A stretch of 64,000 nt of DNA from Lacibacter luteus. GTDB taxonomy: Bacteria; Bacteroidota; Bacteroidia; Chitinophagales; Chitinophagaceae. The notes beneath the pieces were generated by a model. It was not told the origin of the DNA and did not search any database. It saw only the letters and a list, made by a program, of their open reading frames with translations. Below, piece after piece: positions 12,001 to 37,196 of the stretch; positions within the stretch are counted from its first letter, which is position 1; every line of letters begins with the position of its first letter. A program made the position numbers and the translations under genes. The stretch is from NCBI RefSeq assembly GCF_004118265.1, contig NZ_SDHW01000001.1:806001-870000 (forward strand). The letters run 5' to 3'.

Positions 12001-12336
12001 CAGAGATGTTACAACTACTTCGCCAATCTCTTTGGTAGATACATCCATGCTTACTTCAAGAGTAGTTCGGCCATTCAAACTTTCCTCCCTGGTTTCAAAA
12101 CCAATAGAAGTAAACACCAACGTAGCATTAGAAGCTACTGTAATGCGGAACGCACCGTTTGCACCAGTTGTTGTTTGATTGGAAGTACCCTTTTCCTTAA
12201 TTGTTACCGAAGCCACAGGATTTCCTTCCGCATCCTTTACGGTACCGGTAACCGTCTTTTTTTCTTGTGCTGTTACACTCAACAAGCACAGAGCTGCCAT
12301 AGTAAAAAGCAGCAATCGTTTAAACAACGTTTTCAT
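9007..12336 (-). CDS. SusC/RagA TonB-dependent outer-membrane transporter (locus A)
   Basis: 1109 residues. Signal peptide (LLLFTMAALCLLSVTAQ), then a carboxypeptidase-regulatory-like domain (VTGTVKDAEGNPV to about residue 110), the junction EVVVTSLGITREKKALGYA, a plug domain (IRGINSITGKNQPLIVMDGVP, ILKGASAAALYGSEAVNG) and a large beta-barrel. It ends with an outer-membrane insertion signal (YGVMIRANF, terminal Phe). It imports oligosaccharides using TonB energy together with the downstream SusD. The GITREKKALGYA signature is typical of SusC partners of SusD-like_2 proteins. No ECF-sigma/anti-sigma pair or HTCS adjoins; the gene directly upstream is a ROK regulator 66 bp away. Confidence 0.95.
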   Translation of the reverse strand: MKTLFKRLLLFTMAALCLLSVTAQEKKTVTGTVKDAEGNPVASVTIKEKGTSNQTTTGANGAFRITVASNATLVFTSIGFETREESLNGRTTLEVSMDVSTKEIGEVVVTSLGITREKKALGYASSTIKAEDLTQAGSPNFAAALYGKAPGVRIGATPGGATSAVNINIRGINSITGKNQPLIVMDGVPIRNEEVRNNDYWNDQRLRGNGLLDINPEDIENISILKGASAAALYGSEAVNGVILITTKKGSKSSRGFSVDFNANYSVDQVAYLPRYQNVRGAGAPLNVSNGGQDAEGFVYYDTNGDGIKETRGILGYSINFGPKFDGKPTMGWDGVIRPYEAQKDNYAGLFQTGRNSSINVAVSQSSANATTRFSLTRQQNQGISLGAENYKNIANLNTSLKLGKKFTTDVIVNFINQKTHNRPYSIDRMINNFTGMMGRFDNADWYLNKYQTSKGYRFVTGTNQSLTPGENIIYNGFKGDIADYVWRVKRHNEDEYSNRIIGSITNTWQIINELRLRTRFSSDFTALRSESKQATEIPLAFGNSGYFGMNSYQNNILYGDALLTYSKNITRDIEFNAMAGYTATKETQTLIGRGTNGGLSTENLYDVAASVNTANSSSSRFFLIKDAIIGTVNANYKNYLFVEATVRRDRTSVMNPSHNSFVYPSVNSSFILSDAFKLPSYVSFAKVRASWGVVGNYPDIYNANIAYNQNTLGVQSVGGQPVLYTTIPSSFGNDAIKPEEKHEMEFGVEARFLNNRLGLEVSYYNAQIRDQILPLTIPASSGATSVLTNIGTLRNKGIEIALTATPVSKKNFKWETGVNFSQNKNVVEKLSSGSNELLHQDYDGNAAQLKSVVGQSMGDFYAHPVLTNSKGEKVVGSNGLYTLDANNMVKVGNAMPKVVGGFFNSIRYKNFNLDVLTDFRFGGYVMPTGINWMISRGLLEESLNYMDKEHGGISYYVNAQGKGMQTTATAGPNGEKVYNDGMLVDGVTSNGQKNTNVISQAYYYWNVYNWGGPQYSYSRYELYIKKNSYVKLREVSLSYTLPEKAAKFVGARKIQLSAFGRNLFYLYRTLKDMDAEQTTAGSRWFQTLNNAGTNPSTRSYGVMIRANF

Positions 12337-12402
12337 TGCAGTTTGTTTTTGGTTAAAAAATAAAGAGACTGTTGTGAATAATGGAAGTAAGTAAATGGTA
12401 GC

Positions 12403-13623
12403 CTAAAGCTCAACCTGGCTACCTGCATTTTTGGTTTTTCGTCTTTCTAACGTATCAAAATGGTCCATTACCAATGCTGCTGCTCCAATTAATTCCGCAC
12501 GAAAACCAAGTGATGAAATTTCGAGGTGTGTATTCTCCGCAATTTTGGGAATACAATGTTCATTGATTGCTTGTTGTATAGGTGCAAGCCATATTTTACC
12601 ACCAACTGATCCTCTTCCGCTCAACACGATCAGTTCGGGATTGAATAAATGAATAAGGATAGATATACCACGGCCTATATGGTAACCCGCTTCTGATAAC
12701 AATTCAATGGCATATTTATCGCCTTTGGTTGCCGCCTCCATAATTTCTTTGGATGAATCTTCGGCATGTTCCAATGTAAGGTTCTTTAAGATCGAAACTT
12801 TCCCCTGCTTTAAACCTGTAATGGCTTTTTCGGTAACAATAAATAACGATGATTCTGTTTCTAAGCAACCACTCTTACCGCAACTGCACATTTTGTTATT
12901 GCTGAAAAGCGGAAGGTGACTGAACTCGCCTGCAAAACCATTGTTACCACGAAACAGTTCGCCTTTTACAACCATTCCGAGACCAATACCCCAACCAATG
13001 TTTACCACCATTACGTTTTGCTTACTGCGTGCAACACCAAACTTTAATTCGGCAAGTGCAATTAAGCTGGAATCGTTATCAATAAAAACAGGTACTCCAA
13101 CAATCGCTTCAACAGTACTTATGATGCTATTACTACCTTCTGTTTTAAGAAAAGAATGATTGATGCCTTTGGTTACATCAACAAAACCGGGCATACCAAT
13201 ACCAATACCGGCAATTTTATCTTTTGAAATACCTGATGCCAGAATATAGTTATTGATGTGTTGTGTTAGCTGTGTAAGTGCTGCCGGATTGTTACTTAAA
13301 GGAAGTTCGATGCGCACCGGTTCCAGCACATAATTGTTCTGCATGTCCAGAATGGCAATACGTGTTACCAACTGATCCATGGCAACCGAAACCACATAAA
13401 GCATATCTGCTTTTAAAGAATATACCAACGGGCGACGTCCTCCGGTTGAATGGGCATAGCCCGACTCAACTACCAATCCCTCTTCGATCAACTCGTTCAG
13501 CACACGGGTTGTAAGCGGAAGGCTTTTATCTGTGAGCAGACTCAAATCGGCGCAGGAAAGCTCCTTCTCAAAATAGAGATGCTTTTGAATCTGGCGTTTG
13601 TAACGACTATTCTTTAACAGCAT
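12403..13623 (-). CDS. ROK-family transcriptional regulator
   Basis: 406 residues. The N-terminal 75 residues form a winged helix-turn-helix (SCADLSLLTDKSLPLTTRVLNEL, GGRRPLVYSL wing). The rest is a ROK sugar-kinase-like domain: GIGIGMPGFVD (139-149), IDNDSSLIALAE with Asp183, GEFSHLPLF with His236, and the ROK zinc signature CSCGKSGCLE (Cys246, Cys248, Cys253). Such proteins (NagC, Mlc, XylR types) are repressors or activators released by a sugar or sugar phosphate. It is transcribed toward susC with a 66-bp gap, so it is the likely local regulator of locus A. The ROK catalytic Asp is present, but with the HTH domain a regulatory role is favoured over a kinase. Confidence 0.92.
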   Translation of the reverse strand: MLLKNSRYKRQIQKHLYFEKELSCADLSLLTDKSLPLTTRVLNELIEEGLVVESGYAHSTGGRRPLVYSLKADMLYVVSVAMDQLVTRIAILDMQNNYVLEPVRIELPLSNNPAALTQLTQHINNYILASGISKDKIAGIGIGMPGFVDVTKGINHSFLKTEGSNSIISTVEAIVGVPVFIDNDSSLIALAELKFGVARSKQNVMVVNIGWGIGLGMVVKGELFRGNNGFAGEFSHLPLFSNNKMCSCGKSGCLETESSLFIVTEKAITGLKQGKVSILKNLTLEHAEDSSKEIMEAATKGDKYAIELLSEAGYHIGRGISILIHLFNPELIVLSGRGSVGGKIWLAPIQQAINEHCIPKIAENTHLEISSLGFRAELIGAAALVMDHFDTLERRKTKNAGSQVEL

Positions 13624-13769: not shown

Positions 13770-15029
13770 TTAGTATTCCACCTTATAATCTTTCTTCACC
13801 GGCTCACCTTTCCAGGCTTTACGGCTGGTCCAATCGGTTGCAGCATCAGTCCAGAAAGCGTGACTGGCAGGTAAACCAAGCGTTAAAAAGCCAATGCTGC
13901 AGATGTATAAACTACCTGTAGAAGTATATTGATCGGCGATCATTGGCTGATGCCCGTTAAAACCAAGTACTAACCATCCATTGCTATCAAAGTTTTGATT
14001 GCCACTGTACATCTTATCAATAACAGCAGTTAATGCACCACGCACCTGTGCCTGTGTAATATGTGCGGGCAATTTTTCCATTAATGCAACCTGCGCCAAT
14101 ACCTGGAAAGCAGCTGTACGGTAAGTGATGGAACGACCGAATGCAGGATATGTTCCTTCGGGTGAAATGATACGTTCTAAAAATTCAGCATGACGTACCA
14201 TGCGTTGTATTGCCTGATCGTAATCCTGTTGTTGAGCCATTTTCTTTTCAACCAATATTTTCAGCAGATCAACCAACATTGGATGGATGACATACGAGTT
14301 GTAATAATCCATGCTGAACTTTTCACCATCACTATACCATCCATCACCCACATACCATTCTTTTATTTTACGAACACCAAAATCAATACGAGCAGGATCA
14401 TATTGTTCGCCAATACTTAACAGGAATCCTTCGTTAAGTGCAGAAAACAACAGCCAGTTATTATAAGCACCTTTACGGTTGCGTAATGATTTAAACTCTT
14501 CAATAAAACGTTGTTTTGTTACAGCATCAAGTGGCTCCCACAAAGCTTTTGGTGCACGCAAAAATGCATGCGCCACATATGCAGCATCAACAATGGGTTG
14601 TCCTTCCGTACGAAAGTTTAAATAATCAGGATGTGCAGGATCAACAGCATTGCGTAAGCCTTTCAGTAATTCATCACGCAACTGTTTACGCATTTTACCT
14701 TCAGCAGTTTCATCATCAGGCAATGCCAGCCAAGGCGCTACACCAGCCATGGTGCGGCCAACAGCTTCGAGATAGGTTACTTTCTTCACAGGCAAATAAT
14801 ACTGTGGTCCAATTTCTAATGGAAGGTTTTGTTTTAATGTGCCTTCTGCAAGATTATGAATAACAGGGTAAGCAATTTTATACAGGTTGTTTACCCACAC
14901 CTGTCTGTCTTGTAAGCCTTGTGTAACTTGCAGAGCTGCAGTTTCTTTCTTTTTTGTTTTTTGCGCATTGATCGTATTGTACAAACCTGTTACAACAATC
15001 AGAACAAAAAGCAACGTATATTTTTTCAT
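13770..15029 (-). CDS. DUF2264-type secreted protein, putative uronide-active hydrolase
   Basis: 419 residues with a signal peptide (LLFVLIVVTGLYNTINAQ). The body matches the DUF2264 family: VTYLEAVGRTMAGVAPWLALPDDE, NNWLLFSALNEG, DGWYSDGEKFSMDYYNSYVIHPM, AFGRSITYR and TGSLYICSIGFLTLGLPA. The predicted fold is an (alpha/alpha) toroid as in GH88/GH105-type enzymes. I recall DUF2264 being linked to a glycoside hydrolase family acting on glucuronides (GH154), but this cannot be confirmed here. It closes the locus B operon after the lyase and GH88, which fits uronide processing. Gap to GH88 is 44 bp. Confidence 0.85.
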   Translation of the reverse strand: MKKYTLLFVLIVVTGLYNTINAQKTKKKETAALQVTQGLQDRQVWVNNLYKIAYPVIHNLAEGTLKQNLPLEIGPQYYLPVKKVTYLEAVGRTMAGVAPWLALPDDETAEGKMRKQLRDELLKGLRNAVDPAHPDYLNFRTEGQPIVDAAYVAHAFLRAPKALWEPLDAVTKQRFIEEFKSLRNRKGAYNNWLLFSALNEGFLLSIGEQYDPARIDFGVRKIKEWYVGDGWYSDGEKFSMDYYNSYVIHPMLVDLLKILVEKKMAQQQDYDQAIQRMVRHAEFLERIISPEGTYPAFGRSITYRTAAFQVLAQVALMEKLPAHITQAQVRGALTAVIDKMYSGNQNFDSNGWLVLGFNGHQPMIADQYTSTGSLYICSIGFLTLGLPASHAFWTDAATDWTSRKAWKGEPVKKDYKVEY

Positions 15030-15073
15030 ATCCTTCTTATTACACTTAAGCTACTGCTTATTATATAAACAGT

Positions 15074-16342
15074 TTATTTTTTGATAGGAGTAAACAACTT
15101 TTTTCCTTTTAACAACAGATCGTAACGTTGTAACGCTTCAAGAAAATAATAATCGGCATATACAAGTGGCACATTGATCTCAACATTATGTGGAATGCTA
15201 CCAACAGATTGCATCAGCAGAAAATTTCCATTGTTGCCAAGCGGTGCTCTGTAAGCCGGGCTTGCCAATGAATGTAACATCTGTGCCGCAAAGTTGCGGT
15301 ATGCTTTTCCTTTGGTAGTGCTGTATGTACTTAATTCCATTAACGCCGAAGCAACTACTGCTGCAGCTGATGCATCACGATAAAGAGTGGTAATATTTTT
15401 TGCGTTTGAACGTACACCGGGTGTGTAGCCTTGTTGTTGTGCATTAAAATCCCAATACGGAATTTTATCGGCCGGAAGATTTTTGTGATGCATAAAGAAA
15501 TCTGCAAGCCCTTCTGCTGTTTTTAAAAATCGGGGATCTTTTGTTTCACGATACACCATGGTAAAACCATAAATAGCCCATGCCTGTCCTCTCGCCCATG
15601 TTGAATTATCTGCATAACCCTGTGCTGTTTCTCTACCTGCAACTTTGCCTGTAATGGTATCGTAACAAACAACATGATACGAGCTGTAATCTTTTCTTAC
15701 CTGGTACTTCATGGTATTTGTTGCATGTTCTATTGCAATATGACGAAAGGATGTATCGCCGGTTACTTCCGATGCAAAGAACAACAGCTCAAGATTCATC
15801 ATATTATCAATGATCACCGGGAAGTTGTAGGTTTTATTTCCATGCCATGACTTAAATACATTCCACGACTTGATACAACCTGTTACCGGGTTAAACCTTG
15901 TGCTGAGCGAACGGGCAGATTGTACTAAAATATCTTTATACGCTTCGTTACCGGTAAGTCTGTATGCATTGCCATAACTGCAATACATCATAAACCCAAG
16001 ATCGTGATGTTGTGTAAATGTTTTTAAAGGCTCCAGCGTTTCTGTCCATTGCTGTGCTGCCTTTTTCAGTTCTGCATCGTTGCTGTATTCAAACGAATAC
16101 CAAAGACTGCCGGGAAAGAAACCCGGTGTCCAATCGTACATAGACGTAGTTACCAACTTTCCGTTTTTGTTGATGCTGCGTGGAAAAGCAAGTTTACTTT
16201 TATCAACTTCCTTCAACATATTTTTCAGTTGCTTATTGGCATAGCTGAAGTTTTCTTTAATAAAAGCTGTATCCTTTTTATCGTTCCGGAATGCTGTTAA
16301 TACAAGCGCAATAACGCAGACGAACAAGAGTGACTTTTTCAT
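15074..16342 (-). CDS. GH88 unsaturated glucuronyl hydrolase
   Basis: 422 residues with an N-terminal signal sequence (LLFVCVIALVLTAF). The GH88 fold is recognisable from MYDWTPGFFPGSLWY, TQHHDLGFMMY with Asp114, FPVIIDNMMNLELL with Asp179, and ADNSTWARGQAWAIYGF. The two Asp residues correspond to the catalytic pair of GH88 enzymes, which hydrate the enol ether of delta-4,5-unsaturated uronic acid left at the non-reducing end by polysaccharide lyases. It lies 10 bp from the heparinase II/III-type lyase, which would create exactly that end. The pairing strongly supports a uronic-acid polysaccharide substrate for locus B. Confidence 0.93.
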   Translation of the reverse strand: MKKSLLFVCVIALVLTAFRNDKKDTAFIKENFSYANKQLKNMLKEVDKSKLAFPRSINKNGKLVTTSMYDWTPGFFPGSLWYSFEYSNDAELKKAAQQWTETLEPLKTFTQHHDLGFMMYCSYGNAYRLTGNEAYKDILVQSARSLSTRFNPVTGCIKSWNVFKSWHGNKTYNFPVIIDNMMNLELLFFASEVTGDTSFRHIAIEHATNTMKYQVRKDYSSYHVVCYDTITGKVAGRETAQGYADNSTWARGQAWAIYGFTMVYRETKDPRFLKTAEGLADFFMHHKNLPADKIPYWDFNAQQQGYTPGVRSNAKNITTLYRDASAAAVVASALMELSTYSTTKGKAYRNFAAQMLHSLASPAYRAPLGNNGNFLLMQSVGSIPHNVEINVPLVYADYYFLEALQRYDLLLKGKKLFTPIKK

Positions 16343-28563: not shown

Positions 28564-28761
28564 TCACTTACGGGCAAAAAAAAAGGTCATCTGTAAAAAC
28601 AGTTGACCGTTAACGATTGCTTGCCATATAAAAAAAGAGTTCGAAGATCTTGTTTGTGAAATAAGGTGAATCACTTTTCTAACCGCTCTACCCTTTCGCC
28701 TTATTTGATAAATCAAAATTACTATGAAACCGATTGCGGCAAAAACAAGAAAACGGCTCAT
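28564..28761 (-). CDS. Possible small membrane peptide, 65 aa
   Basis: ATG at 28761 would give a 65-residue peptide starting MSRFLVFAAIGFIVILIYQ, one predicted transmembrane helix followed by a basic stretch (IRRKGRAVRK). I do not recognise a family. The last 15 or so codons overlap an intrinsic terminator (28576-28608), so the C-terminus (FLQMTFFFARK) partly reads the U-run, which weakens the call. It lies alone in the 481-bp gap between the HTCS and uxuA, downstream of the uxuA terminator. It could equally be a non-coding small RNA unit. Confidence 0.3.
   Translation of the reverse strand: MSRFLVFAAIGFIVILIYQIRRKGRAVRKVIHLISQTRSSNSFFIWQAIVNGQLFLQMTFFFARK
28576..28608 (-). terminator. Intrinsic terminator, minus strand
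   Basis: GGTCAACTGT, loop TTTT, ACAGATGACC (minus strand) makes a 10-bp stem with one mismatch, followed by nine T residues. It ends whatever is transcribed leftward in 28610-28900, since uxuA already has its own terminator at 28912-28950. Confidence 0.75.
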
Positions 28762-28911
28762 TTTATGATGCCTACGGCACGAACAAAAGCTGAAACGCAA
28801 TCTGGCAAAGGATTTCAGCATAAAAAACCAAATGACTTCCAACGCATTTTTGGGCTAAAAAATAGTTGCAAAAAACTTCACGCAATCGTTCCCGAACATG
28901 CAGATTCCTGC

Positions 28912-28950
28912 AAAAAAGAAGGGAATCCGTATTGCCGGATTCCCTTCTTT
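28912..28950 (-). terminator. Intrinsic terminator of uxuA
   Basis: A perfect 15-bp stem (AAAGAAGGGAATCCG on the minus strand with its complement, loop GCAATA) begins 20 bp after the uxuA stop. On the minus strand it runs into TTCTTTTTT. Strong rho-independent terminator. Confidence 0.88.
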
Positions 28951-28969
28951 CATTTTAAAGACCTCATTT

Positions 28970-30151
28970 TTACGCCAACGAGCGGCTGATGCCCAGCTCA
29001 AGCCCTCTTAATTCGGCCAGGCCACGTAAACGGCCAATGGCACTGTAACCTGGATTGGTCTTTTTGCTTAAATCGTCGAGCATCTGGTGACCATGGTCGG
29101 GCCTTACCACAATGCGGCGGTTTTCTTTCTGCATCAGCAAAACCACTTCTTTCATTACTGCATACATATCTACATTGCCTTCGAGATGATTGGCTTCATA
29201 AAAATCGCCATCAACATTTCGTTGTGTGCTGCGCAGATGTAAAAAGTAAATACGATTACCCAAACGTTTTACCATACCCGGCAAATCGTTATCTGCACGT
29301 ACGCCAAAACTGCCCGTGCAAAAACATAAACCGTTTGCAGGCGATGGTACAGCAGCAATCAAATCATTAATATCTGCTTCTGTACTTACCACACGAGGCA
29401 AACCAAAAATAGGATGTGGCGGATCGTCGGGATGAATAACCAACTGCACACCTGTTTCTTCTGCAACCGGTATTACCTGCTGCAGAAAGTAAATTAAATG
29501 CTGTTTCAGTTTTGTTGCATCAATATTATCATAAGCAGCCAATGCTTTTGCAAAATCAGCAACAGTAAAACTTTCTTCACTGCCGGGTAACCCTGCAATG
29601 ATGGTGCGTATAAGCGATTGCTTTTCTTCTTCCGTCATTGTTTGCAAACGCAGTTCTGCTTTTTGCAACTCTTCTTTACTGTATTCATCTGCTGCTCCTT
29701 TGCGTTGCAGAATAAACACATCAAAAGCAATATAAGCAGCACGTTCAAAACGCAATGCTTTACTGCCATCGGGCATTGTGTAATACAGATCGGTTCTTGT
29801 CCAGTCGAGCACAGGCATAAAGTTGTAGGTAACAACAGTAATACCGCATGCACCCAGGTTACGGAGCGATTGTTTATAATTTTCAATATACAATTCAAAG
29901 CCCGGCTCCTGCCTGCGGATAGCTTCATGCACAGGCACACTTTCCACCACATCCCATGTTAAGCCTGCAGCTTCCACCTCGGCAATGCGCTTTTTTATTT
30001 CTTCAATCGTCCATACTTCACCGTTAGGTATATGGTGCAGTGCAGTTACAACACCCGAACAACCGGACTGGGCAATATCGTTTAACGATACAGGATCGTT
30101 AGGGCCATACCAACGCATTGTTTCAATAAGCCCTGCATTTTTTTTATTCAT
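28970..30151 (-). CDS. uxuA: Mannonate dehydratase
   Basis: 393 residues, cytosolic, full length for UxuA (EC 4.2.1.8), which converts D-mannonate to 2-keto-3-deoxygluconate in glucuronate catabolism. Recognised from [19 protein letters not shown] start ([19 protein letters not shown]), [70 protein letters not shown] and [12 protein letters not shown]. It lies outside locus B but only 480 bp from its regulator, so it is a plausible sink for uronic acids released by the lyase/GH88 pair. Its promoter region carries two candidate operators (30191-30210, 30235-30248). No uxuB or uxaC homologue is in the window. Confidence 0.95.
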
Positions 30152-30190
30152 TCTTGTTAGTTGGTTAAAGGCGTAAAATTAATTTACTGC

Positions 30191-30210
30191 AGAGTTAAAT
30201 AATCAACTCT
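30191..30210. promoter_or_regulatory. Inverted repeat upstream of uxuA
   Basis: AGAGTT, 8-nt spacer, AACTCT, 40-59 bp upstream of the uxuA start and near a TAATTTTA stretch that resembles a Bacteroidota -7 element. Possible operator. Confidence 0.35.
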
Positions 30211-30234
30211 AACAGCATAGTAGTAAACAATAAA

Positions 30235-30248
30235 CGAAAACGTTTACG
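30235..30248. promoter_or_regulatory. LacI-like operator candidate upstream of uxuA
   Basis: CGAAAACGTTTACG is a 14-bp near-perfect palindrome with central AACGTT, the shape of LacI/GalR-family operators. It lies about 85 bp upstream of uxuA and 17 bp after the GAPDH stop. No LacI-type gene is in the window. Confidence 0.4.
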
Positions 30249-30264
30249 TGAAGCAAGCGTTCGT

Positions 30265-31245
30265 TTAGTTTATCCAGTAACGCAACCAATCGATCATCCG
30301 ACTGGTATAGCCATATTCATTATCGAACCATGCAATGAGTTTTAACTGCCGTCCTACAACGGAGGTAAGTTCTCCGTCGATAATACACGAATGCGTGTTT
30401 CCTCTTATATCTGCCGATACCAACGGATCTTCTGTGTACTGCAGTATGCCTTTGTATTCGTTGTCGGCAGCTTTCTTAAACAGTGCGTTGATCTGTTCTT
30501 TTGTAATATCCTCTTTCATCTGCACCGTAACATCGGCCATTGCACCATTGGTAACAGGTATGCGTACCGATACAGTTGCAATTTTTCCCTGCAGCGGCAA
30601 CAAACGTTCCAGCGATTGTGCCAGATCGATCTCTACGGGAATAATTGATTCTGCCGCTGCCCTGCCCCTGCGGTATTGTTTATGTGCAGCATCAACCAGT
30701 TCCTGTCGGGATGTGTAAGAATGTAAAATATTCAGTTGTGCCGATTCAATACCGATTGAATTGAGCAGATAAAGAATATGTGTACTGCAGTTGGTCATAC
30801 ATCCGCCGGGTGAAACTATTTCATCTTTACCTGCAGGATTGGTATGATTATGCCCGTAAATAAGCAACGGAATATCGGTTGAACCTGTCGTAGAAAGCAA
30901 TACACGTTTTGCACCTGCTGCCAAATGTTGTGTTGCCTTTGTTTTAGATGAATACGCACCACTGCATTCCAGCACCACATCTACTCCATACTGTTTCCAG
31001 TTAATATTACTTACATCAGCTTCCTGCAGCACTGCAATGTCTTTGCCTGCAACAGTAAATGTATTGTTATCCTGTAACAGCTCCTGCTGCCATGCACCGT
31101 ATAACGAATCGTATTTTAATAAGTACGCAAGATTGGCCGCATCCATCAGATCGTTTACTGCCACTACTTCCAGTTGAGGATCGTTTGCAAGACGACGAAA
31201 CAACATTCGTCCGATCCTGCCCATTCCGTTTATCGCAATTCGCAT
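30265..31245 (-). CDS. Glyceraldehyde-3-phosphate dehydrogenase, divergent
   Basis: 326 residues, cytosolic. Rossmann start MRIAINGMGRIGR, VAVNDL, ECSG, the catalytic region SPGGCMTNC with Cys149, ILHSYTSRQELVD with His175, RGRAAAESIIP, SVRIPVTNGAMADV and WFDNEYGYTSRM. It should oxidise glyceraldehyde 3-phosphate (or a similar aldehyde) with NAD(P). The usual S-[NA]-A-S-C-T-T-N active-site block reads GGCMTN, with a second Cys four residues on, so it is a paralogue rather than the standard glycolytic enzyme. Catalytic Cys and His remain. The gene is followed 113 bp later by uxuA in the same direction and preceded by a heptad repeat array. Confidence 0.88.
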   Translation of the reverse strand: MRIAINGMGRIGRMLFRRLANDPQLEVVAVNDLMDAANLAYLLKYDSLYGAWQQELLQDNNTFTVAGKDIAVLQEADVSNINWKQYGVDVVLECSGAYSSKTKATQHLAAGAKRVLLSTTGSTDIPLLIYGHNHTNPAGKDEIVSPGGCMTNCSTHILYLLNSIGIESAQLNILHSYTSRQELVDAAHKQYRRGRAAAESIIPVEIDLAQSLERLLPLQGKIATVSVRIPVTNGAMADVTVQMKEDITKEQINALFKKAADNEYKGILQYTEDPLVSADIRGNTHSCIIDGELTSVVGRQLKLIAWFDNEYGYTSRMIDWLRYWIN

Positions 31246-31309
31246 TTTTAAATATGGGTGATTGTTGAAGCCGCAAAGTTAAGCAGAGGATGTTTAGGAT
31301 GGAGGATTG

Positions 31310-31386
31310 GGATTTTGGATTTTGGATTTTGGATTTTGGATTTTGGATTTTGGATTTTGGAATTTGGAATTTGGAATTTGGAATTT
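31310..31386. repeat. Perfect heptanucleotide tandem repeat, (GGATTTT)7(GGAATTT)4
   Basis: Eleven uninterrupted 7-bp units: seven GGATTTT from 31310 then four GGAATTT to 31386. It fills the divergent gap between the GAPDH start (31245) and the PQQ-repeat gene start (31418). Both unit types are internally exact, with a block change from one variant to the other, as expected from slippage or recombination. No spacers, so not a CRISPR. Confidence 0.95.
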
Positions 31387-31417
31387 CCTTGTTATTATAT
31401 TTACAAAAAAACAACGC

Positions 31418-31768
31418 ATGAGAACCGATCAATACCTGTACATTTTATCGAAAGGCAGAGTGGCTGCAATAAGCAAAAAGGACGGAAGTATTTTCTGGGA
31501 AATAAAGCTGAAGGATTACGCCAACGTAAGCAGTACATCGTTAGGCTACGGACAAATAAGTGTTGAAAACAACAAGCTTTATATCGGAATATCGGGTCTT
31601 TTATTTTGCCTTAACGCAAAAGACGGATCGTTGGTATGGTTTAACGAGCTGAAAGGCTGGGGCTATAACTTTATCAGTATTGCAGGAGCAGGCAACGAAT
31701 CTGCTGCAGCTGCTTCTGCCGCAGCACAGGCTGCTGTTACGGCTGCAGTTGTTACCACTACTACATAA
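31418..31768 (+). CDS. Small PQQ-like beta-propeller repeat protein
   Basis: 116 residues from ATG at 31418. A longer TTG-started frame reads through the heptad array and is rejected. Contains two PQQ-type repeats: YLYILSKGRVAAISKKDGSIFWE and LYIGISGLLFCLNAKDGSLVWF, each with the A-x-D-G-S-x-x-W core. The C-terminal 25 residues are Ala/Thr-rich (NESAAAASAAAQAAV, ending TTTT). No signal peptide. A full propeller needs about seven blades, so this may oligomerise or be a fragment-like adaptor. Function unknown. Confidence 0.72.
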   Translation: MRTDQYLYILSKGRVAAISKKDGSIFWEIKLKDYANVSSTSLGYGQISVENNKLYIGISGLLFCLNAKDGSLVWFNELKGWGYNFISIAGAGNESAAAASAAAQAAVTAAVVTTTT

Positions 31769-31954
31769 TGCAGTTTACGTAATTGCAGATGTTATTACAA
31801 GTGTGAAGTTTTGGCTTTATCGTCGTTCGGCAATGGTGAATCGTGAGTGCCAAACTGCAGCGCATTGGTTGTCGGTCGTAAGATTTTCAGCAATTCGCAT
31901 AGCCTTACTTATTTTGAACCGGTTATAGAAGGGCGCCCAAGAGCATGCACCTCT

Positions 31955-32395
31955 TTACAAAAAATCATACTTTGCTTCAGCGTATTTTACTGCGTCTTCG
32001 TACCGGAAAAAAATGTTTACCGGCGGCTGATTGATATCAAAGTTCCATAAACTTGACAAACCATATTTATTAAGGTCTGAAAGCAGAAAGGCAATATCAT
32101 ACTTATCTTCAAAAATCTGCAATTCAAACAAAGGGCTCAACGCATCAATAAATGAATTGCCGAAGGAATATTGCAAAAGCGACATATCGAGCAAAAGCGA
32201 TGAGGGACGCATGGCCAGCAGATTTATTGCCAGTTCCTGCTTGATATAACTACAGTCGGGTTTTGCCTTGCTGCCCTCCGAGAGTACACCCGTTAATCTT
32301 GCAAGCATGATACTTTTTCCTTCATCCTTAAAAAATTCAACCTTCACATTCTTTTCTGTATGCTTCTCCGTTTCGTAAGGTTTAAAATTTGCCAT
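31955..32395 (-). CDS. Hypothetical cytosolic protein, 146 aa
   Basis: No signal peptide or membrane segment. The middle part (IMLARLTGVLSEGSK, PSSLLLDMSLLQYSFGNS, YDIAFLLSDLN) has the alternating strand/helix pattern of STAS/SpoIIAA-like domains, but this is only a resemblance. ATG at 32395. The 186 bp between its end and the convergent PQQ gene show only weak heptad-like sequence near 31830. Confidence 0.6.
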   Translation of the reverse strand: MANFKPYETEKHTEKNVKVEFFKDEGKSIMLARLTGVLSEGSKAKPDCSYIKQELAINLLAMRPSSLLLDMSLLQYSFGNSFIDALSPLFELQIFEDKYDIAFLLSDLNKYGLSSLWNFDINQPPVNIFFRYEDAVKYAEAKYDFL

Positions 32396-32502
32396 GTATA
32401 TATTCAGTGTTAATGTTTCAAATCGCCGGTAATGTTAAAGAATTACTCCAGACAAAAGATTTATTGTTGTACCGGTTCTGCACTGAAGCTGAATAAAAAT
32501 AA

Positions 32503-32832
32503 TTACCACTCTCTTTCACGTATTGCTTCCTCAATATCTATATCGATGTTGAAATACTTAAGAATATTGTCTACAGTTTCGCCGATCGATTCTCTTGCAA
32601 CTGTTTCAATCTCGCTGTCATGTTCATCAAACTCTTCCTCCAGCTGATTTATACCCAACGTCATTTTATCGAGTGAAGCCTGAATTTCTTCGTTTGAATG
32701 ATCACCTTCTTCAATAAACAGCACAACACTCTTGATCAGCTCCTTTACTTTGTCAACAAGAAAGTTGGGAAAATATTCATCTGCGTACATGTCTTTTAAA
32801 TATTCGAAGTCGCCTGGGAGTTTCTTTGTCAT
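32503..32832 (-). CDS. DUF5713-type protein, 109 aa
   Basis: Short acidic cytosolic protein. FEYLKDMYADEYFPNFLVDKVKE at the start, LEEEFDEHDSEIETVARESIGE in the middle and IEEAIREREW at the end match the conserved pattern of the DUF5713 family as I know it (FLKDMYADxYFP, EEFxExxSEIETxARE, C-terminal xxW). The function of the family is unknown. It is transcribed with the 146-aa gene downstream across a 107-bp gap; no operon evidence. Confidence 0.75.
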   Translation of the reverse strand: MTKKLPGDFEYLKDMYADEYFPNFLVDKVKELIKSVVLFIEEGDHSNEEIQASLDKMTLGINQLEEEFDEHDSEIETVARESIGETVDNILKYFNIDIDIEEAIREREW

Positions 32833-32920
32833 ATTAAGTATTTTAAGTTGTTTTAAACGTTTTTTCTTCTTTGGTGTAAGTGTTCCGCAGAATCACTTGT
32901 TGCCGTTTATTTCTGTTCCG

Positions 32921-32938
32921 ATCCGATAGCTATCGGAT
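32921..32938. repeat. Perfect 18-bp palindrome
   Basis: ATCCGATAGCTATCGGAT is its own reverse complement. It is nested inside weaker outer arms (TTCCGAT upstream, ATCGGAA downstream). It lies in the 315-bp gap 32833-33147, which holds no convincing gene. A shorter related hairpin, CCGAT-ACA-ATCGG, lies at 33026-33038. The CCGATAGCTATCGG core resembles dispersed palindromes common in Bacteroidota genomes. Confidence 0.7.
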
Positions 32939-33051
32939 TTATCGGAAACTTCATTTGCACAACAGCTGCGGTAAATAATAACATACAGCTTTGTACTATT
33001 GCTCAGTTCTTGATTTCCAAATTCCCCGATACAATCGGAGCTACATTAGTT

Positions 33052-33090
33052 GGCATCAAGTGATCCACTGCGATGGAACACTTGCGCCAG
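33052..33090 (-). repeat. Imperfect palindromic element, left copy
   Basis: GGC..CAAGTG pairs with CACTTG..GCC, with an inner TCCA/TGGA stem and 6-nt loop. Read on the minus strand it begins CTGGCGCAAGTGTTCC (33090-33075), which matches CTGGCGCAGGTCTCCC at 34041-34056 in 13 of 16 positions. The two copies point outward from the AT-rich segment between them. Confidence 0.6.
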
Positions 33091-33147
33091 CGTGAGTTCT
33101 GTCGCCCCTGCTATTGCAAATACTTTTGTTGCCTGCATGTGTTTTGT

Positions 33148-33714
33148 CTATTGAATATAATACCACCCATCTATATTCTTTTCATGTAGCATATTGATAT
33201 AAGTAACACACACTCGCCTGATTATTGATTTTTTAATTACAAATTTTTTTGTTTTTTCGTCAGTCATTATATGAATATACATGCAATCTGCCTGAGATAT
33301 TGCCTCAACATCTTCTTTTTTGTATTGGCTAACAGTTTGGTTACTCTCAAATTTCACAATTGAATTATACTCAAGATTGTCAATGAAACCTTTGAGAAGT
33401 TTTGATGAAAATGAAACAAATTGAGATGAAGTCAATTTATAGACTACTCTATTATCGTCCCAAGTAATAAAATATTTGTTGTCGCCAAAAACGGATGTTT
33501 CATTTTTCGAAAAAGTAAATTTTATAGCCTCCAAATTTTTCGTCTTTTCCTGGTATAGTCGTAAGAGTTTTTTACCGTAATTATTTTTCCTGATTTTTAA
33601 AATCCGTTTTAAGGTTTTTAAAACTTCAGCAGAGTAAGTGCTTTCCGATAATAAGTATAAAATATTCTGTAAGCTTTTCTTCAATCCTCTCGTTCCAAAT
33701 ACTGCGTTGTACAA
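33148..33714 (-). CDS. Hypothetical protein, probably the 3' part of a frameshifted gene
   Basis: 188 residues, basic, from a TTG directly after an in-frame TAA. It overlaps the upstream 89-aa frame by 89 bp. Text such as LQNILYLLSESTYSAEVLKTLKRI looks like genuine protein from the overlap onward, whereas the upstream frame there looks out of phase. The simplest reading is one gene of about 245 residues broken by a frameshift near the A-rich run around 33680. No family recognised. AT-rich codon use differs from the neighbouring genes, which fits transfer. Confidence 0.5.
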   Translation of the reverse strand: MYNAVFGTRGLKKSLQNILYLLSESTYSAEVLKTLKRILKIRKNNYGKKLLRLYQEKTKNLEAIKFTFSKNETSVFGDNKYFITWDDNRVVYKLTSSQFVSFSSKLLKGFIDNLEYNSIVKFESNQTVSQYKKEDVEAISQADCMYIHIMTDEKTKKFVIKKSIIRRVCVTYINMLHEKNIDGWYYIQ

Positions 33715-33895
33715 TTAAGTCAAGTTTTCCATTAATAGATTTGAGTTTGTCCGGCTTAACTATGTTTTTTTCAAGTGTCGGGTCGCCGAAAACCTTTATT
33801 GTATATCCACCCGCACCTAAGCACTTTTCGCAAAAGTCATACCCACCAATTTGGCAGTCAGGACAAACAATATACTTTTCGTAATGCAGTTTCAT
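33626..33895 (-). CDS. Zinc-ribbon hypothetical protein, probably the 5' part of a frameshifted gene
   Basis: 89 residues from ATG at 33895. The N-terminus has two CxxC pairs, CPDC and CEKCLGAGG (DnaJ-type CxxCxGxG-like knuckle), probably binding zinc. The last 25 or so residues (LTEYFILIIGKHLLC) look like out-of-frame reading of the following gene. If the frameshift is real, the ancestral protein had an N-terminal zinc knuckle followed by a basic domain of unknown function. A sequencing error is an alternative explanation. Confidence 0.5.
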   Translation of the reverse strand: MKLHYEKYIVCPDCQIGGYDFCEKCLGAGGYTIKVFGDPTLEKNIVKPDKLKSINGKLDLIVQRSIWNERIEEKLTEYFILIIGKHLLC

Positions 33896-34040
33896 AAAGT
33901 CTTGGTATTAAAAATAGCAGAGTGTCAATTTAGCATTGCAGGCAACGTTAGGGCTTTATACAGGCGGTCGTTGTTGTTACATCCAGCCCAGCCTACCGAA
34001 ACCGAATAAAGTTACTAAAGTTGAAAATATAAATATGTAA

Positions 34041-34065
34041 CTGGCGCAGGTCTCCCGACCTGTGC
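34041..34065 (+). repeat. Palindromic element, right copy
   Basis: GCGCAGGTC, loop TCCC, GACCTGTGC: 9-bp stem with one G-U. Sits in the 327-bp gap 33896-34222, which has no convincing gene. Similar short GGTCTCC-GACC hairpins resemble REP-type palindromes. Related in sequence and mirror-oriented to the element at 33052-33090. Confidence 0.6.
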
Positions 34066-34222
34066 ATTTCCGTTACTTCTTTTTATACAGTTTGCAATTA
34101 CAAATTTAGTGACGCTTAGGCCAGAGAAACTTACCGGCGCATATCGCTGATCTGTGCCATAGAACTTTCATTCACTTTTTACATTTTATGGTTCAAGCAC
34201 CCGAAAAAAGACTGAACAACTA

Positions 34223-34636
34223 TTACCTGAATATAATAAATAAGAAAGCAAGCACCCCAACCAGCATCATTAGTTTACCCATTTGCCGTGTCTGTTTATT
34301 ATAGGCATAATACGTTTCGCCTCCGTCGGTTTTAATTTTCGATTGACTGTACACATAGCCTGCATAGATGCCCAGCAAGCCGCCAAGCAATGCCAGCATA
34401 AAACAAAGAAAAATATACAGTGGGTTGCCATCCTTTCCTTCTTTAAGTTCTTCTTTAACGCTTTGTTCAGCTTCCTGTTTCTGTACAGCAAAATTTTCCA
34501 ATACAATATTACGGGCAAGTAATTCTTCTTTAGCAAGGCGCACAAATTCGGGGTTATAGTTACGGGAGTTGATGTAGATATCGGTAAGCTCTTTATCGGT
34601 CTTTTGTTTTATCTGATCGGTAAAATCAAATTGCAT
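34223..34636 (-). CDS. Small membrane protein, hypothetical
   Basis: ATG at 34636 (MQFDFTDQIKQKTDKEL) gives 137 residues; an ATG at 34717 would add 27 unconvincing residues. An N-terminal soluble part (LTDIYINSRNYNPEFVRLAKEELLARNI) resembles short helical segments seen in Bacteroidota inner-membrane proteins. Two transmembrane helices follow: PLYIFLCFMLALLGGLLGIYAGY and LMMLVGVLAFLFIIF, separated by a polar loop. Function unknown, transcribed alone. Confidence 0.68.
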   Translation of the reverse strand: MQFDFTDQIKQKTDKELTDIYINSRNYNPEFVRLAKEELLARNIVLENFAVQKQEAEQSVKEELKEGKDGNPLYIFLCFMLALLGGLLGIYAGYVYSQSKIKTDGGETYYAYNKQTRQMGKLMMLVGVLAFLFIIFR

Positions 34637-34803
34637 ACTGGTACTTTTTACAGAGGGTTTGTACTGTAAATATATACTTTGATAACAAATGCTAAAAAAA
34701 GCGCCAGATTGCTTCATTGTATTTCCTCACAAGAACGCTTCGGATAGTGCAGACAATAGTAAGAAATAAAAAAGGGAAAGACGGTGCAAGTAATGTATTA
34801 CTA

Positions 34804-34983
34804 TGAACAATTAACGTTGAACAACTGACCACAGTCTACCACAGTACTATAGCCTGGCATTCACCACTCACCAGTTCATGGTTGATTGTTCATTGTTCAC
34901 GGGAAGGCAATACAGCTGATGTATTACTATGAACCATGAACTATGAACCATGAACTATAAACTATAAACCATAAACTACAAAC
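34804..34983. repeat. Two heptanucleotide arrays reaching into the GH43 stop codon
   Basis: 34804-34901 holds 14 degenerate units in register (TGAACAA, CTGACCA, TTCACCA, GTTCATG, GTTCATT and similar). 34928-34983 holds eight tighter units (TATGAAC, CATGAAC, TATAAAC, CATAAAC, TACAAAC). The second array overlaps the last codons and TAG stop of the GH43 gene (34976-34978). The gap 34718-34975 has no gene. Confidence 0.75.
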
Positions 34984-36022
34984 CTCCCGAAGGAACTTTC
35001 AATAACTCTCCCTCCTTCACCGGCACTCCAAAATTGGGTGTACCATCTTTGTTCCAGGTAAACAGTTGTGCACGTGGTGATCGAAAGCCACCACAACCTT
35101 GCCCCGGTTTTGAATTGGCGTGATAGAGAATATAATTTTCTTTACCATCAGGCGATTGAAAAAAGGAATTATGCCCCGGTGCATATACACTGTTCTCTGC
35201 AGATTGTTTAAACACAGGCTCCGGTGATTTTTTCCACGAAGCAGGGTTCATTAAATCACTGTTGCTGTTTGCAGTAAGCATACCGAGTGCATAGGTATCC
35301 GTCCAGCAACCACTGGCTGAGTAAATAAGAAAAAGTTTGTTGCCATTCACTAATACCTGCGGCCCTTCATTGACATATACATTCGGCGGATCATCGGGGT
35401 TACTGATCTTTCCATTGCGTTCCCATGGATACTCAGGCGATGAAATTTTTACACGTTTGTTTTCTACTGTCCACGGGTTTTTCATTTTCGCCATGTAAAT
35501 ATTCTGTTGTCCGTTTACGTCGCCTTCCCAACCCGACCAGATCATGTACAGTTGTTGCTTGTGTTCAAATACCGAACCATCAATGCTCCATTTATCATCG
35601 GGTGTGGTGAGTTTTCCTTTTACGATCCATTCGCCTTGCAAAGGATCGGCTGCACTGTTTTCCAACACATACATACGATGATCGATGTTCTTGCCACTAT
35701 CAGCTGCAAAATAGATGTACCATTTATTTTGCAGGTAATGAATTTCAGGCGCCCATAATTCTTTTGAATACGGACCTTTTGCAGGTGGCGTAAACACCAC
35801 TTTCTTTTCAGCCGTTTTTAAGTTGGCAATGCTTTTTGTTTTCCAGAGTGTGATGTTGCGGCCTGTTGTATGTGTGTAATAATAATAGCCACCTTTATAC
35901 ATACACCAGGGATCGGCGCCTGCAGGCAATAACGGATTGGTAAATGTTTCCTGTGCCGCTGCACAAACAGATGCAAACAAAACAAGCGCACTAAAAAGAG
36001 GTTTCAGCAATTTCATCATCAT
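34976..36022 (-). CDS. GH43 arabinofuranosidase/xylosidase-type enzyme (1)
   Basis: ATG at 36022 (MMMKLLKPLFSALVLFASVCAAAQ), about 348 residues with a signal peptide. Five-bladed GH43 propeller: GADPWCMYKGGYYYY (catalytic base Asp), LWAPEIHYLQNKWYIYFAA, SIDGSVFEH (pKa-modulating Asp) and YVNEGPQVLV (acid Glu), then YAPGHNSFF. Acts on alpha-L-arabinofuranosyl or beta-xylosyl linkages. Last gene of the locus D operon, 11 bp after galM, and about 50% similar by eye to the GH43 at 39339. Its stop lies inside a heptad repeat array. Confidence 0.92.
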   Translation of the reverse strand: MMMKLLKPLFSALVLFASVCAAAQETFTNPLLPAGADPWCMYKGGYYYYTHTTGRNITLWKTKSIANLKTAEKKVVFTPPAKGPYSKELWAPEIHYLQNKWYIYFAADSGKNIDHRMYVLENSAADPLQGEWIVKGKLTTPDDKWSIDGSVFEHKQQLYMIWSGWEGDVNGQQNIYMAKMKNPWTVENKRVKISSPEYPWERNGKISNPDDPPNVYVNEGPQVLVNGNKLFLIYSASGCWTDTYALGMLTANSNSDLMNPASWKKSPEPVFKQSAENSVYAPGHNSFFQSPDGKENYILYHANSKPGQGCGGFRSPRAQLFTWNKDGTPNFGVPVKEGELLKVPSGGL

Positions 36023-36032
36023 CAAAGTAAAC

Positions 36033-37196
36033 TTATTTTTTTACAGAAAACTTATAAACAGAGCTTGTTTTGTACTGTTGCCCCGGCTCCAGTACCGTTG
36101 ATGGAAACGAAGGTTGATTTGGCGAATCGGGAAAGTGTTGGGTTTCCAAACAAAACGCTGTACGGAAATCATCTTTCCCTCCACCCTTGATCGTGTTCTT
36201 CGATTGCATAAAGTTACCACCATAAAACTGCAGACCGGGTTCCTGCGTAAACACATCCATCACAATATTTGTTTTATCACCTGTAACTGTTGCTGCATGA
36301 TTCAATCCTGCACCTGTTGGTTTATTCAGCTCAAAATTATGATCGTATCCTTTACCGTTTTTCAACTGCACATCATCGGCATCTACCCGTAAACCAATAG
36401 CAGTGGGTGTACGAAAATCAAAAGGCGTATTGGCAACAAATTGATTTTTCCCCAATGGAATTAATGTAGAATCAACCGGCGTGTACAGATCGGCATTGAT
36501 CCACAGCGTATGCTTATTGATGGTGCCACTACCCTGTCCGTTTAAATTATAAAATGCATGATTGGTTAAATTCACCACCGTTTTTTTATCGGTCGTTGCT
36601 TCGTAATCGATCTTCAGTTCATTGTTGGCCGTAACTGTATAAGTAACTTTTACAGAGAGATTACCGGGATAGCCTTCTTCCATATCTTTTGAAAGATAGG
36701 TAAGCACCAATGAACTGTCGCCAACCTGTTGCGCATCCCACACCACATCCTGGAAACCTTTTTTACCACCATGTAATGTGTTGGGGCCGTTGTTGGTGAA
36801 CAGTGTGTATTCTTTTCCATCCAATGTAAACTTACCTTTTGCAATACGGTTGCCGTAGCGACCAATGGTTGCACCAAAATATGGTTCGGTTGATGCTTTG
36901 AATTGCTGCACACTGTCGAAACCAACCACAACATCTACCATGTTGTTGTCGGTATCAGGCACAAGCAGACTTACCAAACGTCCGCCATAGTTGGTGATGG
37001 CCGCCTGCATGTTGTTTTTATTTTTTAAGATGTACAAACTTGTTGCTTTACCATCAATGGTTTGTTTGTATGCTTCAACCGATGGCAGTTTTGCGCCTGC
37101 TGTTTGTTTTTCTTCGGTTTGCTTTTCTGCATTGTTGCAGGCTATTACAGCCGCCATGCTTAACAACAGGATGAATTTGTTTTTATGTTGCTTCAT
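36033..37196 (-). CDS. galM: Aldose 1-epimerase (galactose mutarotase-type), lipoprotein
   Basis: 387 residues. Domain markers: ITNYGGRLVSLLVPD, PYFGATIGRYGNRIAKGKF, NTLHGGKKGFQ, NLTNHAFYNLNGQG, GYDHNFELN with catalytic His, and CLETQHFPDSPNQPSFPS with catalytic Glu. It interconverts alpha and beta anomers of aldoses such as galactose or arabinose. Unusually for a metabolic epimerase it carries an SPII signal (MAAVIAC), so it is predicted to be anchored in an envelope membrane, probably periplasmic. It lies 12 bp after GH127 in the operon, where it would help anomerise released arabinose before uptake. Confidence 0.92.
   Translation of the reverse strand: MKQHKNKFILLLSMAAVIACNNAEKQTEEKQTAGAKLPSVEAYKQTIDGKATSLYILKNKNNMQAAITNYGGRLVSLLVPDTDNNMVDVVVGFDSVQQFKASTEPYFGATIGRYGNRIAKGKFTLDGKEYTLFTNNGPNTLHGGKKGFQDVVWDAQQVGDSSLVLTYLSKDMEEGYPGNLSVKVTYTVTANNELKIDYEATTDKKTVVNLTNHAFYNLNGQGSGTINKHTLWINADLYTPVDSTLIPLGKNQFVANTPFDFRTPTAIGLRVDADDVQLKNGKGYDHNFELNKPTGAGLNHAATVTGDKTNIVMDVFTQEPGLQFYGGNFMQSKNTIKGGGKDDFRTAFCLETQHFPDSPNQPSFPSTVLEPGQQYKTSSVYKFSVKK

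Follow-up and report, generated by a model that had tools for sequence, protein, structure and literature searches.

The AT-rich insert at 33128–33946 of the window, i.e., the whole 64,000-nt stretch of Lacibacter luteus DNA analyzed here, is very probably a worn-out gene cassette, left stranded, from a gene-capture system of the Bacteroidia that resembles integrons. This system of the Bacteroidota is apparently widespread and undescribed; the literature searched, with preprints and most subscription papers outside its range, contained no description of such a system in the phylum.

Architecture of the window insert

The preliminary description had reported an exact 10-bp inverted repeat around an AT-rich segment, with outward-facing palindromes beyond each end, and all of these were found where it had placed them. 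The window sequence reads GTTGCCTGCA at 33128–33137 and its exact reverse complement, TGCAGGCAAC, at 33937–33946, while CTGGCGCARGT occurs exactly at 33080–33090 (minus strand) and 34041–34051 (plus strand), both copies facing outward. The G+C content is 0.287–0.297 in 300-nt windows within 33150–33749, and 0.353–0.467 in those windows of 30000–36899 that are clear of the insert. The insert is filled by two ORFs on the minus strand, 89 and 188 aa long, which overlap and use different frames, and it was borne out that the insert has no transposase gene. We read the region as follows (the slash marks the cassette boundary).

33128–33946, minus strand: putative gene cassette body, from R' to R''; its ends fit those of array cassettes of the same genome and of others
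33937–33946, minus strand: core box R' (GTTGCCTGCA), start of the cassette, from sequence and array consensus
33128–33137, minus strand: core box R'' (TGCAGGCAAC), end of the cassette, from sequence and array consensus
33947–34040, minus strand: preceding attC-like site (3' half), with CCCTAAC/GTT at its end, from the model R1 and G009 matches
33091–33127, minus strand: attC-like site of the cassette itself (5' half), from identity to known left arms and model R1
33626–33895, minus strand: cargo ORF of 89 aa, first part, assigned to no family
33148–33714, minus strand: cargo ORF of 188 aa in another frame, likely the remainder of a gene split by a frameshift
32872–33090, no strand assigned: REP-type repeat with a terminal inverted repeat, outside the cassette, beginning where the left half-site stops
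34041–34114, no strand assigned: second REP-type repeat (CTGGCGCAGGTCTCCCGACCTGTGC...), known from its copies, outside the cassette, beginning where the right half-site stops

On the minus strand, the parts thus follow each other as right half-site (34040–33947), R', gene, R'' and left half-site (33127–33091), and both half-sites stand at the expected place and in the expected orientation. The ends fit, for example, those of an array cassette of the same genome, GTTGCCTGCT...AGCAGGCAAC, at L051:18258–18856. In the left half-site, the 24 nt after the inner repeat are identical at 21 of 24 positions to a known left half-site, which is the best result among 1257 AACA positions (next best, 17); model R1 scored only 11.1 bits there (E 0.07). 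The right half-site was recognized by model R1 with 23.5 bits (E 5.7e-5) over 33969–34033, and a plain identity test of this half gave 20/34, a tie with two unrelated positions. Model R2 had no match at the insert. A search of 59 related genomes further uncovered, in G009 of the same genus, a 77% match over 33923–34036 that crosses the outer repeat; at the matched locus, adjoining genes each have their own inverted repeat, with palindromic junctions between them. Of the earlier proposal, a cassette carrying its own gene stands, and the inverted repeat fits a pair of core boxes instead of transposon ends.

Neither cargo ORF reached any cut-off in the family search. With the 188-aa ORF as query, no relatives were found in 147 family and 395 phylum genomes besides the window's own, so that the protein is present in one of the 147 family genomes. 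Fixed presence at this locus in all relatives, with ends that never recur, had been named as the outcome that would speak against a mobile cassette; this restricted occurrence, together with the ends found beside other cargo at other loci, is the opposite pattern. An empty site in a sister strain, also suggested earlier, was not found: the stretch examined in G009, the nearest sister genome, matches only 28569–31287 (84.6%) and then differs. The window segment had no plasmid DNA match, and Rfam returned 0 matches at gathering level in the window. The cargo gene seems to be frameshifted, and the cassette is thus probably immobile now; since a REP-type repeat begins where each half-site stops, it is probably dead as well.

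Two other places in the window drew attention. Just after the DUF5713 gene, 32458–32501 (minus strand) gave a weak match resembling a site loop (11.2 bits, E 0.066), which may represent a further decayed cassette. The inverted pair 47008/47860 was considered as a second cassette and dropped, as it sits inside genes of SusD/SusC type.

REP-type repeats at the flanks

The likeness of the palindromes to REP-type sequences was upheld, both being repeats with copies elsewhere: the one at 32872–33090 has full or partial copies in the window genome (G000), G002, G006, G013 and others, and the one at 34041–34114 in G000 and relatives. Their proposed role as nested ends of the element was not, for they come from two repeat families that otherwise differ, and such repeats also occur in or beside attC-like sites at other loci. 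Repeats are found without the cassette and cassettes without repeats, which argues against REP palindromes as the ends of the mobile unit. On contig C24 of G000, the site model covers 278 nt that enclose such a repeat (L171:10375–10652), and in G002 a half-site adjoins a repeat copy (L022:1422–1504). Repeats within or against attC-like sites were seen at L171, L022, L061 and window positions 33090 and 34041. REP-type repeats may favor hairpins, or their placement may be a coincidence of intergenic DNA.

Cassette arrays and their attC-like sites

The window genome encodes a 397-aa tyrosine recombinase on contig C21, not beside the window cassette itself, followed by a same-strand array of unrelated genes, and the machinery that had been supposed to act from elsewhere in the genome is likely this integrase. 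Each unit of the array starts with GTTRnnnGYH, ends with the reverse complement of this motif and is separated from the next gene by a hairpin site. Among the cargo are a MerB-family gene (assigned by Pfam, NCBIfam giving no match at E 1e-10) and an Imm51 gene, as well as a 6.8-kb cassette that combines Vsr with two ORFs of DNA-methyltransferase type (by eye) and a type ISP gene. The same genome also carries an integrase-less array of ~7 sites (L168; contig C11, about 924–928 kb), one cassette of which (5113, 5669) begins with GTAGGCAGCA and ends with TGCTGCCTAC, i.e., with a GTA start and a matching TAC end; the same change in both core triplets is expected if both boxes come from one site. 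In G009, contig C4 (L166:8002–9723) has a further two cassettes, complete with their sites, at a distance of ~6 kb from the same GAPDH gene as is found near the window cassette. The right-hand neighbor gene of the window cassette is present in 2 of 14 genus genomes, G000 and G013, in another context in the latter. Among cassettes of G009, we also observed a Y1_Tnp-like ORF (L040:8516–9181; 17.4 bits, below the cut-off of 23).

In a set of 27 sites (eight loci), 120 of 133 positions agree between the paired ends of 19 cassettes, whereas shuffles carrying the same letter constraint averaged 67.2 with a maximum of 93, and 0 of 20000 reached 120. The two boxes within one site of this set agree on average only at 3.1 of 7 positions. 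Core boxes of one cassette match although sites were not chosen for this. Two of the 19 cassettes disagree (1/7 and 3/7), where an intervening site was probably missed. A larger set, drawn from 22 loci, has 80 sites; of its 58 consecutive pairs, 45 show agreement at 6 or 7 of 7 positions and 13 at 5 or fewer. With free core letters, i.e., with only AAC-A and C-GTT demanded, the same high level (6 or 7 of 7) was reached by 23 of 32 consecutive pairs, as counted by hand at 11 class-level loci.

Sites were searched with a spacing from 60 or 70 to 200–260 nt. In the 27- and 80-site searches, R' positions 4 and 8–10 and their R'' partners were partly fixed; the 80-site search left positions 5–7 free and additionally required a C in front of GTT and an A behind AAC. 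The consensus GTTRnnnGYH, present in 76 of 80 sites, is therefore partly built in. In a set of 22 sites collected without requiring them, the A and C beside the boxes never vary, and the canonical GTTRRRY core occurs in 3 of 80. The arms of the sites pair, with covariation at 13 of 16 stem pairs and, in the 27-site set, energies of -30.7 within and -18.7 between sites, the own arm being the best partner in 18 of 27; both measures are descriptive and not independent proof, since sites were picked for arm pairing. The short site class measures about 138 nt including both core boxes, and many sites reach 175–192 nt. At gathering level, Rfam gave 0 matches in seven array loci; four matches at chance level (E up to 5) fell in one 6-kb stretch.

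The integrase and its association with the sites

Of the 26 integrases collected, 24 were aligned, leaving out L108, which is broken, and L115, which is devoid of the N-terminal domain. The residues to which we assign catalytic roles are invariant, as are Trp39 and Trp46 of the N-terminal domain. This domain reached no Pfam family at cut-off and was barely covered by the fold comparison; we presume a likeness to HARP domains. The structural model (pLDDT 84.9, pTM 0.55) was closest to the archaeal Xer 4a8e (Z 23.3), followed by XerA 5hxy (19.8) and IntI4 2a3v (18.4). Similarly, the best family scores were XerA_Arch with 192 bits and XerC with 170, below every Xer cut-off, and the IntI family TIGR02249 gave 168 bits, in two stretches, vs a cut-off of 265. 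The IntI-specific insertion is absent, profile positions 285–300 facing IntI4 residues 186–241. A true IntI (421.9 bits) is encoded by G052 of the same order, the one among 59 related genomes that passes the IntI cut-off; the integrase shows a gap opposite the insertion of this protein and shares with it a C-terminal SPLD motif. G052 has neither R1 sites nor the integrase described here.

Around the 26 integrases, with site orientation taken from the core boxes, 77 sites lie downstream in 210258 nt vs 4 upstream in 163574 nt; 98 further downstream calls fall on the opposite strand because the sites are palindromes. At least one downstream site is present at 20 of the 26 loci, the array running in the direction of the integrase. 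Of the six others, four have <1.4 kb of contig left; at L111 (G161) the integrase (11788–12846, minus) is divergent from three R1 sites (13775–16159, plus), as in canonical integrons and in contrast to the other loci, and L112 has no site in about 12 kb. In 15 of 26 loci, as judged by eye, an AT-rich stretch like GTATATTTATGA, a candidate attI-like site, lies ahead of the first cassette. A second genome scan, which partly overlaps the other genome set and includes Pinibacter soli MAH-24 and Ginsengibacter hankyongi BR5-29, yielded 19 integrase loci, 13 with R1 sites downstream and, among the other six, four with <700 nt left.

R1 sites were detected in all 14 genus genomes, with 24 in G000 (E up to 0.001), several of them far from the integrase, and in 79 of 149 Bacteroidia genomes. 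The integrase profile matched strongly (E up to 1e-60) in 82 of the 149; at E 1e-40, 113 pass, the weakest of which look like ordinary Xer. Site and integrase co-occur in 61 genomes, 18 have the site only, 21 the integrase only and 49 neither (Fisher p 5.5e-9, ignoring relatedness). A single-protein search (E up to 1e-40) found the integrase in 58 of 147 family genomes and 45 of 100 genera, a few of these matches being weak. Six plasmid records hold at least 80% of the integrase; of the two examined, NZ_CP041688.1 of Chryseobacterium sp. SNU WT5 (L212) has five R2 sites downstream of the gene, and the C. oryzae locus (L211) yielded no sites. None were found either at two Flavobacteriales loci with an integrase of 35% identity (L163, L164).

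Cassettes shared between orders

We compared 120 cassettes, duplicate records of the same contigs being included and then ignored. G116, of the window's family, and G210, of another order, share a cassette encoding AadS (NCBIfam score of 511 bits vs a cut-off of 450), with 1030 of 1030 positions the same (L113, minus strand; L180:5001–6030), while its 200-nt flanks are only 37% and 30% alike and its edges fall at C/GTT. The copies of a MerTP cassette (scored at 318 bits vs a cut-off of 180) in G010, of the window's genus, and G260 match at 1434 of 1435 positions, and those in G010 and G227 are 98.0% alike; G260 and G227 each belong to another order (L055:10437–11871, L182 and L185). The downstream flank of this cassette is 32–39% alike, and its upstream flank 52–58% because neighboring sites resemble each other. 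Older cassette pairs are 66–73% alike. Neither the AadS nor the MerTP cassette matched plasmid DNA, and the size of the contigs with shared cassettes, 82 kb to 3.1 Mb, makes contamination less likely. On this comparative evidence, cassettes appear to move between genomes as discrete units, with breaks at C/GTT.

Proposed mechanism and alternative readings

We infer from the sequences that the integrase carries out the recombination. It would cut a cassette out as a circle that carries one hairpin site, with R'' paired to R' there, and the circle would be inserted between C and GTT, either in another site or in an attI-like one beside the integrase gene. The two boxes of one site would thereby come to lie at opposite ends of the integrated cassette, appearing here as the 10-bp inverted repeat. 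The window cassette may be left over from such an array or have been inserted off-site, and REP-type insertions would then have cut off both its sites.

A non-autonomous transposon or MITE would take the REP-type palindromes as its ends, with the 10-bp repeat nested inside and a REP-associated Y1 transposase acting in trans. The palindromes do face outward on both sides, and a Y1_Tnp-like ORF, albeit below cut-off, lies among the G009 cassettes; however, the two palindromes come from different repeat families and are present without this cargo, intact cassettes elsewhere have no such end repeats, and shared cassettes break at C/GTT and not at REP motifs. We consider this reading very unlikely. 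Likeness to the REP/REPIN and RAYT systems is confined to the REP-like look of the flanking palindromes, which here interrupt sites instead of forming cassette ends.

Coincidence deserves even less credit, and an AT-rich orphan gene caught between a random inverted repeat is extremely improbable, even though the repeat alone is at chance level and hence by itself no evidence. Exact GTT-led 10-bp inverted pairs, 220–3500 nt apart, number 12 in the window vs a mean of 9.3 and a maximum of 18 in 100 dinucleotide shuffles of it; one pair in the window also fits the array core consensus, as does at least one in 21 of 100 shuffles. Against chance stand the left half-site, best of 1257, and the right one, with an E of 5.7e-5, both correctly placed and oriented. 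An ordinary cassette of a canonical integron with IntI and attC, stranded as in CALIN, would likewise have hairpin sites, core boxes and this arrangement of cassettes, and a true IntI does exist in the order, in G052. Nonetheless, the IntI cut-off is passed by 1 of 59 related genomes, and that one lacks an R1 site, GTTRRRY is found in 3 of 80 sites and the associated integrase has no IntI insertion, so that this origin also appears very unlikely.

Relation to known systems and significance

The system appears to work in the manner of an integron but falls outside the definition, because its integrase is devoid of the IntI-specific insertion and GTTRRRY occurs in 3 of 80 sites. It shares with integrons a recombinase gene beside an array in which promiscuous single-gene cassettes all point one way, as well as hairpin sites framed by AAC and GTT boxes, and a candidate attI-like stretch lies ahead of the first cassette; like sedentary chromosomal integrons and CALIN, it has stranded clusters far from the integrase. 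In contrast, the integrase has an N-terminal domain of its own, the core is GTTRnnnGYH and not GTTRRRY/RYYYAAC, and the array runs in the direction of the integrase at 20 of 26 loci. Many sites are also longer than the 57–141 bp given for attC (PMC3053210). Recombinases of the XerA/XerC/XerD type provide the best family scores and folds, and the integrase differs from them in falling below the Xer cut-offs, in its extra N-terminal domain and in the cassette arrays that follow it.

Integrons have been reported as rare in Bacteroidetes, the IntegronFinder 2.0 report naming one complete integron, in Salinibacter ruber (PMC9024848), whereas 79 of the 149 sampled Bacteroidia genomes contain sites of the present system. 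We regard it as somewhat more probable than the contrary that these form a class-wide Bacteroidia integron lineage, with a Xer-type integrase that has no IntI domain and an N-terminal domain of its own, and folded sites with a distinct core consensus, and that this lineage is a main route by which single genes (AadS, mercury transport) move between orders, missed by searches requiring IntI and canonical attC. Two sources call the IntI-specific insertion essential for integron function (PMC8138268, PMC9668308). If the system works without it, the evolution of hairpin-site recombination would become directly testable.

A 2026 study of Riemerella anatipestifer describes homology-independent, unexplained integration of resistance genes with attC-like features (PMC13148043): a gene was taken up along with 27 bp of upstream and 140 bp of downstream sequence, the downstream part having an attC-like fold, and no recombinase is named in that account. 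The short site class reported here, of ~138 nt, is similar in length to that 140-bp part. If true, the lineage would account for the spread of single genes, including those for drug and mercury resistance, among the Bacteroidota, and might account for the uptake reported in Riemerella (PMC13148043).
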